Both the position numbers and the translations under genes were made by a program. A DNA stretch of 64,000 bases, taken from Pseudorhodobacter sp. MZDSW-24AT. GTDB lineage: Bacteria > Pseudomonadota > Alphaproteobacteria > Rhodobacterales > Rhodobacteraceae. The DNA is taken from positions 62,001 through 126,000 of the forward strand of contig NZ_PGOI01000012.1 of NCBI RefSeq assembly GCF_002794355.1, written 5' to 3'. This document shows, in pieces, positions 9,628-12,642 of the stretch (the first letter of the stretch is position 1; the number at the start of each line of letters is the position of its first letter). The notes below the pieces were generated by a model. The model had not been told where the DNA came from, searched no databases, and saw only the letters and a list, made by a program, of their open reading frames with translations.

Positions 9628-10971
9628 TTACAGCGTCCGCATCCGCGGATCGCCGCCATACCCTTGCGCTGGCGCGATCATCGCCTCATGCAAAGCCCAG
9701 ACCAGCGCATCCACGCGGTCCGGGCTGCCCGCGCCTTTAAACCCGGTGCGCGTCATCAGGCACATCTGATCCTCCAGCTTGCGCAAGATGCCTGCATGGA
9801 CAACCCGGCCCTGTTCATACAGCGCCGCCACCGGTTCCGCCCGCAGGCTCTTGCCCCGGGTCGCCGACACGCCGCGATAGGCCACCAGCGCGCCTTGCTG
9901 GCGGATCATTTGTTCCACCATGTCGCCGCCCTGATTGACCTCGGCCACCATGCGGTCGGCCCCGTGGCGCTCATAGGCGGCCACCGCCGCCCGCGCCCAA
10001 TCGGTGGGGGTGCCGCTGATGCTGGCATCTTCCAGCACCACCGCCCGCCAGTCGCGCGGGTTGCCTTCGGTCTGCACCCCCACCACCACGATGCCGCATT
10101 CATCCGACGTGGTCTTGGACGTCACCGGTGGGTCCACCGCCACCACGATCCGGCTCAGCCGCTCAGGCGATGGGCCGCGCGTGCTTTCCAGCATCGCAAC
10201 CGTCCACAGCGCGCCCTCCAGATCGTCGATCAGCTCGCCGTCCAGCTCCTGTCGCCCCAGCCGCTGCCCCCCATAGCGGGACTGCACCTCCTCCAGAAAC
10301 GACTTCGCCAGATAGGCCCGGTTGGCATCGGTCGGGGCATGCGTCATCACCGTCGACGGATTGCGCAAGATCGCCTTTAGCACAGGAATGCTTTGCGGCG
10401 TCGTCGTCACCACCTGTTGCGGATGCGGTCCCAGACGCAACGCGAATTGCAGCTGATCCCATGTCTCCTGCGCCTTCTTCCATTTCGCAAGCTCATCCAC
10501 CCAAGCCGCGTCGAATTGCGGACCCCGCAGACTGTCCGGGTCATGCGCCGAAAAACACTGCGCCACCGCCCCATTTGGCCAAGTCAGCATCCGCCGCGTG
10601 CTGTTCCACTCTGGCCGTCGATCCGGGGGCGAACAGGCCAGAATGCCGCTGTCGCCCAACACCATCACCTCGCGCGCCTGATCCAGCGTTTCCGCCACCA
10701 GCGCCACCCGGCTGGCCCGGCCCGGATCTTGCGGGCGCGCGCCTTCCACTTGGGCCCGCACCCATTCCGCACCGGCCCGTGTCTTTCCCGCGCCGCGCCC
10801 TCCCATGATCACCCAGCTTTTCCACGCCCCTTCCGGCGGCAGCTGATGCGGCAGCGCCCAGAACTCGAACATCCAAGGCAGCGCCATCAGCGCCGCACTC
10901 GACAAGCCGTTCAAAAAGCTGTCGATCACCTCAGGCGTCGCGGAGGAGAGCCAGACGCCGCCCGATCTCAT
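9628..10971 (-). CDS. GTA g2, large terminase subunit
   Basis: The motor that packages host DNA into GTA heads, about 447 aa from ATG 10971 (an in-frame codon at 11073 would run through g1 and is less likely). Walker A is MGGRGAGKTRAGAEW at about residues 56-70, preceded by the adenine-binding W/Q region. Walker B is FDAAWVDELAKW. The C-terminal nuclease has VAVDPPVTSKTTSDECGIV with an Asp, and MVAEVNQGGDM. The start lies 41 nt inside the g1 end. In GTAs this enzyme packages random headfuls; sequence alone does not show specificity. Confidence 0.95.
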   Translation of the reverse strand: MRSGGVWLSSATPEVIDSFLNGLSSAALMALPWMFEFWALPHQLPPEGAWKSWVIMGGRGAGKTRAGAEWVRAQVEGARPQDPGRASRVALVAETLDQAREVMVLGDSGILACSPPDRRPEWNSTRRMLTWPNGAVAQCFSAHDPDSLRGPQFDAAWVDELAKWKKAQETWDQLQFALRLGPHPQQVVTTTPQSIPVLKAILRNPSTVMTHAPTDANRAYLAKSFLEEVQSRYGGQRLGRQELDGELIDDLEGALWTVAMLESTRGPSPERLSRIVVAVDPPVTSKTTSDECGIVVVGVQTEGNPRDWRAVVLEDASISGTPTDWARAAVAAYERHGADRMVAEVNQGGDMVEQMIRQQGALVAYRGVSATRGKSLRAEPVAALYEQGRVVHAGILRKLEDQMCLMTRTGFKGAGSPDRVDALVWALHEAMIAPAQGYGGDPRMRTL

Positions 10972-11257
10972 CGCGCGCGGCGGCAAAGTCGAGCTCACCG
11001 GTTCCGACAGCCCCGGCAAGAGTTTTGCGGAGTTTGTCAACTTTGTTCCTCTCATCCATGAACAGCCGGACAAAACTGCTCAGGTTGTCCGTAACCTTTT
11101 TGGCCTCGGTCAACTGGTCGAACCGTCCGTTCTCGACCTCTGTGATCACCTGCTGAAACCGGATGACCGCCCGCGCCAACTGTCGCTCGGCCACCAACAA
11201 CAGATCCTGTGGCGTGACGGTCTCGTCTTCGTCTTGAGCCGTGAAGTTGATTGTCAT
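10931..11257 (-). CDS. GTA g1, small terminase-like protein
   Basis: The 108-aa helical protein (MTINFTAQDEDETVTPQD) has the long coiled region LLLVAERQLARAVIRFQQVI followed by KKVTDNLSSFVRLFMDERNK. This fits GTA gp1, the degenerate small terminase that has lost sequence-specific DNA recognition. It is the promoter-proximal gene of the cluster. The ribosome site is weak (GGTGGCAGCACAGC before ATG). Its leader holds the terminator hairpin described separately. Confidence 0.85.
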   Translation of the reverse strand: MTINFTAQDEDETVTPQDLLLVAERQLARAVIRFQQVITEVENGRFDQLTEAKKVTDNLSSFVRLFMDERNKVDKLRKTLAGAVGTGELDFAAARDEIGRRLALLRDA

Positions 11258-11302
11258 GCTGTGCTGCCACCCGCCACGCTATCCCTCCGACGAGCAGAAA
11301 TG

Positions 11303-11336
11303 AAAAAGAGCGGTCAGGGGTCTGACCCCGCCGCTC
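11303..11336 (-). terminator. rho-independent terminator or attenuator ahead of GTA g1
   Basis: Read on the minus strand, a hairpin with outer stem GAGCGG/CCGCTC (11331-11336 with 11308-11313) and inner GGGGTC/GACCCC pairing is followed directly by TTTTT (11303-11307). It lies 128 nt after the mltG stop and 46 nt before the g1 ATG. It may end mltG transcription. As there is little space for a promoter after it, GTA transcripts probably cross it. Confidence 0.7.
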
Positions 11337-11362
11337 TCGACACTTCTTCTAGCATGTCACAA

Positions 11363-11391
11363 GTGATACATCAGACCGCGCGGCAAGTCAA
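11363..11391 (-). promoter_or_regulatory. candidate promoter upstream of GTA g1
   Basis: On the minus strand, TTGACT (11386-11391) is followed after 17 nt by TATCAC (11363-11368). This is the best sigma-70-like pair between mltG and g1. If it is used, RNA would start near 11356, about 100 nt before the g1 start codon and only 20 nt before the terminator-like hairpin. This is prediction only; GTA promoters are known to need activator proteins. Confidence 0.4.
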
Positions 11392-11463
11392 GCAAAATAC
11401 CAAGCCACACCAATGGCTTAGCGCCCGCCACGTTAACCTTTTGCTAACCTTGGCAACAGGGGT

Positions 11464-12642
11464 TCACTCCCCCTGCACCCCGGTCTGGCCCTCTTGGCCG
11501 CGCTGACGCTCGATCTCGCGCCAGCGTGCGACATTGGCGTTATGCTCTTGCAGCGTCACCGCAAAGGCGTGCCCGCCGGTGCCATCGGCCACGAAGAAGA
11601 TGTAATCCGTGGAGTCAGGGTTCAGCGCCGCCTCGATGCTCAACCGCCCCGGATTGGCGATCGGCGTCGGTGGCATCCCGTCGATGACATAGGTGTTATA
11701 GGGCGTCTCGCGCCGCAACTCGCTTTGCCGAATGCCACGCCCCAGCACGCCCTGCCCCAATGTGATGCCGTAAATCACCGTCGGGTCGGTCTGCAACCGC
11801 ATCCCGCGCTCCAGCCGGTTGACAAACACACTCGCCACCTGCCGCCGCTCTTCGGCCACCCCGGTTTCCTTCTCGACAATCGAGGCCATGATCAGCGCCT
11901 CTTGCGGCGAAGCATAGGGCAAGCCCTCTGCCCGGCTGGCCCAAAGTGTCGCCAGAATCTGTTCTTGCGCCGCGGTCATCCGCGCGAGCAAGGCTCCCCG
12001 GTCCGAGCCTTTGTCGACCTCATAACTGTCGGGCGCAAGGCTGCCTTCTGGCGGCACCTCCGCCACCTCGCCGGTCAGGAAATCCGCGCGCTTGAGCGCA
12101 TCCACCACCTGCCAGCTTGTCACGCCTTCGGCCAAAGTCACCCGGAAGCGCAGATCCGACTCTTCGACCACGTCCACATAGGCTTGCGGCTTCGCTTCAG
12201 CGGCCGGATCGAATTTCACCACCTCGACATAGCGGTTGGTCGCGGCGTCCAGCTCACGCAGCACCACATCGGCGCTGTTCACCCCGATGCGGAAGTTCAC
12301 CTCGCGCCCGCAGGTCGATTGCCCGCTGGTGGTGATCGAATCCAGCACATCCACCATCGACGCACCCGGAGACAGCAGATAGCTGCCGAACTTAAGCAGT
12401 TGCGCCTTGTCCGAATAATCGGCCCCAATGCGGAAGATCCGCGCATCCGACACCGCACCTTGCGCTTCCAGCGCCCGGCTGACCGAACTCAAGGACGCCC
12501 CGCGCTCGACGCGGAAGCAGATCGCATCGGTCAAAGGCCCCGGCCCGGTGTATTGCTCACGCCCCCAAGCCAAAAGCCCGGCTGCCATCACCAGCAGCAC
12601 GATGAACAATGTCAGTGCATTCGACGCGACCGACCGCCACAT
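11464..12642 (-). CDS. mltG: endolytic murein transglycosylase MltG
   Basis: MltG (YceG-like) is an inner-membrane enzyme that cuts nascent glycan strands and so sets chain length. The 392-aa protein has an N-terminal membrane segment (NALTLFIVLLVMAAGLLAW) and the catalytic block ALIMASIVEKETGVAEERR with the conserved Glu. VFVNRLERGMRLQTDPTVIYG and ANPGRLSIEAALNP are further family marks. It starts 3 nt after fabF stops, so the two form an operon. The last 15 residues are Gln/Gly-rich and not conserved. Confidence 0.96.
   Translation of the reverse strand: MWRSVASNALTLFIVLLVMAAGLLAWGREQYTGPGPLTDAICFRVERGASLSSVSRALEAQGAVSDARIFRIGADYSDKAQLLKFGSYLLSPGASMVDVLDSITTSGQSTCGREVNFRIGVNSADVVLRELDAATNRYVEVVKFDPAAEAKPQAYVDVVEESDLRFRVTLAEGVTSWQVVDALKRADFLTGEVAEVPPEGSLAPDSYEVDKGSDRGALLARMTAAQEQILATLWASRAEGLPYASPQEALIMASIVEKETGVAEERRQVASVFVNRLERGMRLQTDPTVIYGITLGQGVLGRGIRQSELRRETPYNTYVIDGMPPTPIANPGRLSIEAALNPDSTDYIFFVADGTGGHAFAVTLQEHNANVARWREIERQRGQEGQTGVQGE

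Follow-up and report, generated by a model that had tools for sequence, protein, structure and literature searches.

In Caulobacter crescentus, GafY, GafZ and IHF control the GTA cluster (Tran and Le 2024, PMC11150451), and that paper describes an activator homologous to GafA, a GafZ protein that lets RNA polymerase pass terminators, and a requirement for antitermination in expression of the cluster. The GafZ-binding element lies between the -35 and -10 elements, with a left half, GCGCCCG, that reads CG-N2-CG, and the same paper raises the idea that R. capsulatus GafA, which has a GafZ-homologous part, might possess an unrecognised antitermination activity (PMC11150451). Two further systems share this promoter layout: Q of lambda and of phage 21 is loaded at the late promoter pR', before the terminator tR' and the late phage genes (PMC7171158, PMC6606751), and the AlpA/alpBCDE system of Pseudomonas aeruginosa has an element between -35 and -10 and an intrinsic terminator before the first gene (PMC7969949, PMC9371919). 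In R. capsulatus the stretch bound by GafA lies 76-125 bp upstream of g1 and covers the -10 element and the start site (PMC6363796), the C-terminal part of GafA binds the same fragment, and the protein is described as acting via omega at initiation (PMC9638019). Full-text searches, which covered few subscription journals, returned no description of such a terminator for GTA leaders of Rhodobacterales; neither Fogg 2019 nor the R. capsulatus small-terminase paper uses the words "terminator" or "hairpin", and PMC9638019 does not use "terminator".

The GTA leader analysed here lies in a 64,000-nucleotide stretch of Pseudorhodobacter DNA (the window), whose closest named relative by large terminase is P. 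algicola (Pseudotabrizicola, 92% identity). The genes follow each other on the minus strand in the order fabF, mltG and then the GTA cluster, which starts with g1 (small terminase, an ORF at 10931..11257) and g2 (large terminase, 9628..10980, with Pfam Terminase_6N and Terminase_6C, which served as the query stretch). A g1-homologous ORF adjoins TerL in 124/125 loci. The codirectional upstream neighbour mltG (YceG-like, 11464..12642, minus strand, named from ORF reading) belongs to the context and lies outside the module described below. A second terminator-like hairpin (11399-11422, minus strand) sits between mltG and the GTA promoter, and its conservation is not obvious in an alignment of the genus.

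All elements of the module are on the minus strand. The -35 element TTGACT (11386..11391) is followed by a 17-nt spacer containing CG-N2-CG, here CGCGCG (11377..11382), a candidate GafA loading site, and by the -10 element TATCAC (11363..11368), some 6-7 nt ahead of a start predicted at about 11355-11357 from the position of the -10 element and the published R. capsulatus mapping. The initially transcribed block, CATGCTAGAAGAAGTGTC (11339..11356), leads into a terminator hairpin (11306..11338) that begins 18-19 nt past the predicted start and runs into a U-run (11303..11307), the predicted 3' end of the RNA. Counted from the predicted start, the U-run ends at 54 nt, and another 45 nt separate the U-run from the g1 ATG (11257). 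The preliminary description had proposed TTGACT-N17-TATCAC with a hairpin and U-run about 20 nt into the RNA and 45 nt from the terminator to the g1 ATG, and direct reading of the sequence agreed with it in coordinates and in spacing.

Taken as a single sequence, the window provides modest evidence for this promoter and terminator. Over 46 nt, the hairpin stretch has a folding energy of -22.6 kcal/mol (z -3.3; none of 200 shuffled versions was equally stable), a consensus scan turned up 2 terminator-like sites where 1.0 were expected, and the corresponding promoter scan missed the promoter because TATCAC lacks the T that the scan demands. Comparison across the family, by contrast with this single sequence, confirmed the promoter-terminator layout as a feature at the level of sequence. 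We compared the leaders of 125 loci (103 distinct) with those of a second set of 100 loci, mostly from different genera, which had been picked by large-terminase similarity; the counts concern related sequences. In the first set the initially transcribed block was matched at 20 or more of 26 positions in 100/103 leaders, the exceptions being L023, L087 (where the block remains and the hairpin is changed) and L105 (truncated at the contig end); in the second, 77/100 scored above the best of 60 shuffled sequences. A strict test, which demanded a strong hairpin that leads into a T-run of three or more between 30 and 80 nt into the transcript, was passed by 181/203 leaders (median -22.4 kcal/mol), with T-runs of 4-8 in 167 of them and of 3 in 14, and of five or more in 138. 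The 22/203 that failed comprise about six with a hairpin recognisable by eye, one cut by a contig end and others without a clear module. TTGAC falls within the expected stretch in all but 5 of 186 distinct modules, and stands at the same position in about 180 of them, and in the family profile the TA of the -10 element is kept at 94-99%. The check for conservation in other GTA leaders, proposed in the preliminary description, thus came out in its favour.

The module is also a one-per-genome signature. A model built from 28 leaders (R1) recovered the window and 80 of another 99 loci at E<=1e-4, and in the window's own genome it gave one match (E 6.3e-7), the next two (0.05 and 0.32) being coding sequence by reading. 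At E<=0.01, 155/244 whole genomes of the order were matched and 89/244 were not; among 289 genomes of the class, only weak matches were found beyond the family. Weak second matches in other genomes are, by reading, coding sequence or ordinary terminators, and R1 did not find the module again in the window's own genome, at other GafA targets for instance. Rfam 15 gave no match above gathering score, ruling out a known structured RNA family: the window had 0 matches, and 18 module loci were without a relevant match at E<=1. Searches with the PMC6854486 primer sequences did not find the R. capsulatus leader among the collected loci, 394 genomes of the family and viral contigs, and the phage records contained only terminases of less than 60% identity.

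Of 27 loci from other families (L350-L376), 7 gave a hit in the terminator scan (L358, L359, L363, L366, L369, L373 and L374). In L366, L369, L373 and L374, which come from other alphaproteobacterial families, a terminator stands at the head of GTA-like or phage-like clusters, ahead of their first gene, and in L373 and L369 the hairpin and T-run directly follow an AT-rich, promoter-like stretch. We regard terminators ahead of GTA-like clusters in other families as a lead, not a result.

The stem itself covaries. In an 81-row alignment (A4), 96.3% of cells are paired and 11/11 stem pairs show two-sided compensatory changes, with a covariation score of 0.471 against 0.190 in shuffled alignments (0/500). 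A4 is a covariance-model alignment and as such is biased toward the structure used for fitting, yet versions slid out of register still reached at most 0.135; it was made with a stricter E-value than its predecessor A3, which contained six opposite-strand rows. A MAFFT alignment (A1) misaligned two stem registers and recovered 3 pairs only, and a fixed-register count, blurred by shifts of the U-run, gave 75.9% paired over all rows, with one register group at 0.761 against at most 0.742 in shuffles. Because many A4 cells are G-U, the stem appears to be kept as RNA and not as a DNA operator; a palindromic operator is disfavoured by these G-U pairs together with the U-run.

The spacer between -35 and -10 carries a second conserved feature, TTGAC-N4-CG-N2-CG, which is present in 151/180 distinct modules, compared with a mean of 1.8 and a maximum of 6 for shuffled spacers. 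Its likeness to the Caulobacter GafZ element is a resemblance, consisting of four fixed bases at the same position. A profile search detected one DUF6456 protein in the window's genome, GafA-like at 209.7 bits (L377:826-1944, with a gene downstream that is lipA-like by reading), so that GTA terminases and a GafA-type activator gene are both present in this genome. DUF6456, which we take to be the GafZ domain from a Caulobacter control match and the CtrA site described next, occurs in 243/244 genomes of the order, and the single exception (G181) has neither a terminase match nor an R1 match. A CtrA site, TTAAC-N6-GTAAC (L377:743-758), lies 67 nt upstream of the ATG of the GafA-like gene, and gafA promoters have the same CtrA-site pattern at 65-71 bases (Fogg 2019, PMC6363796). 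The stretch bound by GafA in R. capsulatus projects to 11333-11382 in the window, where it spans the -10 element and the predicted start.

We infer a promoter-coupled transcription gate of the lambda-Q/AlpA type ahead of the GTA genes, because the terminator and the spacer element are conserved, a GafA-like gene is present, and GafZ antiterminates in Caulobacter; we put the probability of this reading at roughly two in three. According to it, polymerase would start at about 11356 and, unaided, would stop in the U-run at 11303, releasing a predicted RNA of ~54 nt, and the GTA genes would stay off even with a leaky promoter. Once GafA is made, its C-terminal DUF6456/GafZ-like part would load at the promoter, probably via the conserved CG-N2-CG of the spacer and the first transcribed bases, which are nearly invariant, and GafA would then travel with polymerase, confer terminator resistance and allow transcription of the whole ~14-kb cluster from g1 onward. 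Two hallmarks of Q/AlpA-type control are found in the sequence, namely an intrinsic, covarying terminator between promoter and first gene (in the 181/203 leaders above) and a conserved element between -35 and -10 (in the 151/180 modules). The GafA-like gene is the candidate for the read-through protein by analogy with its Caulobacter homologue GafZ, the one for which such activity is known. Initiation control is very likely involved, because R. capsulatus GafA is reported to act through omega (PMC9638019).

The leader contains further structure around the terminator. In folds of six leaders, an outer helix forms between AGAAGUG (11347-11341) and a 3' strand CAUUUCU (11296..11302, minus strand), which places the terminator at the tip of an extended stem; because this helix spans the U-run, it is possible only in read-through RNA. 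Six of its pairs were tested: pair 12-3 gave a strong signal (0/2000 shuffles), pair 10-5 a weaker one (2/2000), and four gave nothing beyond shuffles. At the covarying pair, C goes with G in 11/17 rows versus 12/111 (Fisher p 3.8e-6, computed on rows that are related), and most outer-helix pairs are too invariant to judge. A second stem, CTCGTGC...GCATGAG (about 11257-11296), precedes g1, and its left half is found in 104/187 modules; it may touch the ribosome-binding region. At the other end of the leader, CAWGCTRGA (+1 to +9, window 11347-11356) is near invariant and is followed by a GAAGTG-like sequence; CAWGCTRGA lies outside the terminator stem and is possibly a signal for GafA, sigma or pausing. 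In relatives, the block at 11350-11356 is often an almost leaderless ATG ORF (MLEEVGK...), with AAG in a sizeable minority.

These elements allow an extended version of the gate, which we consider tentative and on balance unlikely, in which the first bases, the terminator, the outer helix and the second stem would form one composite cis-acting RNA, family-wide and GTA-specific, that a GafA-modified polymerase would use twice. The first use would be a stop passable by the loaded polymerase only; the second would be the long stem, refolded in read-through RNA only, by which the GTA mRNA would be stabilised or processed.

The same helix could also be read as the whole point of the leader: the terminator would be weak and constitutive and would only lower expression, while RNA stability would be the purpose of the outer helix and hairpin, by which the GTA mRNA would be protected or processed at its 5' end. 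That the helix is confined to read-through RNA, that one of its pairs covaries strongly and that the second stem follows in many leaders all agree with such a role, but a protective stem needs no U-run, yet a T-run of at least 3 is kept in 181/203 leaders and one of five or more in 138/181, and we judge this account improbable. To a similar degree we doubt that the ~54-nt terminated RNA is itself the product, acting in trans as an sRNA or decoy, with read-through being secondary. The near invariance of the first ~18 nt and the compactness of the RNA would suit an sRNA, and in R. sphaeroides one is reported to arise from the dcw 5' leader (PMC5089854); against this, there is one match per genome, before g1 only, which fits a role in cis, and the ~54-nt RNA is a prediction that has no Rfam match.

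A hairpin at this place could alternatively serve the gene behind it. The hairpin would then be the terminator of the fabF-mltG operon, placed by chance past the GTA promoter and shielding g1, with GTA RNA passing by virtue of promoter strength: mltG is codirectional and upstream in 68/79 loci, and a terminator at the hairpin site would also halt read-through from mltG. The distances speak against this reading, since the hairpin keeps a fixed distance to the promoter while its distance to mltG varies between 7 and 1508 bp. Of the 11 loci with no mltG in the flank, 10 have an intact module, among them L116 with its divergent upstream gene, and the eleventh (L105) is cut by the contig end. In the window, the other terminator-like site (11422-11399) already lies between mltG and the promoter. 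Moreover, a terminator after TTGAC-N17-19-TA was found at 75/75 GTA sites versus 1/25 other sites in the same named loci. The terminator thus goes with the promoter rather than with the neighbouring gene, because the module is kept without mltG or with a divergent neighbour and because of the 75/75 versus 1/25 split; an operon terminator that appears only with its operon and at a fixed distance from it is not what these loci contain, and the reading is largely refuted and very improbable.

Least probable of all is classical attenuation, with translation of a leader ORF (ATG CTA GAA GAA GTG ...) or an alternative fold deciding termination: the block is an ATG ORF in many leaders and its variable bases often fall at third positions, but just 64% of modules have the T of the ATG, AAG being found in many, and several frames contain stops, after 13 codons in the window and after 5 in L037 (by reading), which leaves neither a conserved start codon nor a frame open across the terminator, and a competing antiterminator fold is absent from the six folds.

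Returning to the promoter-coupled gate, its bearing on the expression of GTA in few cells probably differs from what the preliminary description had supposed. The part of that description's argument that stands is that GTA transcription from a conserved promoter must pass a conserved terminator; a role of the terminator in limiting expression to few cells is the less probable part, and papers attribute this limitation to upstream GafA, CtrA and quorum control. More likely, the terminator contributes a tight off-state, as a leak-proof switch, rather than the choice of the cells that turn on. That account also lacked GafA as an antitermination factor, the conserved element in the spacer, the ~10 invariant bases at the start of the transcript and the outer helix over the U-run.

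A promoter-proximal terminator conserved across the family offers a precise and small cis-target for the GafA question raised by Tran and Le 2024. If true, the gate would explain the silence of lethal phage-derived genes in almost all cells and would join GTA control to the control of phage late genes by Q and of cell death by AlpA via a shared promoter layout. As one match is found per genome, the module can also mark true GTA leaders in genomes.

Korotaev is said to have reported in 2025 that antitermination is used to express BaGTA in Bartonella; BaGTA is of different phage origin. Within the same bacterial family as the window, the dcw leader of Rhodobacter sphaeroides is alike in being a 5' leader that bears an sRNA, UpsM, but it is an extended leader and belongs to cell-division genes, not to a phage-derived cluster (PMC5089854). 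The likeness to lambda Q and phage 21 Q lies in an antiterminator that would be loaded at the promoter before a terminator, ahead of phage-type genes; Q and GafA belong to different protein families, and loading of lambda Q needs a sigma-dependent pause (PMC7171158, PMC6606751), whereas neither a lambda-like sigma pause signal nor a full -10-like hexamer was evident by eye in the first transcribed block here. Caulobacter shares with this locus the GTA cluster, the GafA-homologous activator and the position of the element between -35 and -10. In Caulobacter, however (PMC11150451), GafY and GafZ are two distinct proteins, the leader measures at least 229 nt, where the hairpin here falls inside the first 50 nt or so of the transcript, and the terminator tested consisted of three 150-bp repeats after the first gene and not of the leader, where here a short hairpin stands before g1. 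AlpA is, by analogy, the closest working analogue of the GTA gate, as it combines the element between -35 and -10 with an intrinsic terminator before the first gene and, as with GTA, switches on lysis genes in a subset of cells (PMC7969949, PMC9371919). AlpA is considered by its authors to be unrelated in sequence to other antiterminators, and predicted GafZ structures are described as lacking similarity to AlpA (PMC11150451). AlpA has two target loci (PMC7969949, PMC9371919), whereas the GTA leader is the one match in its genome.
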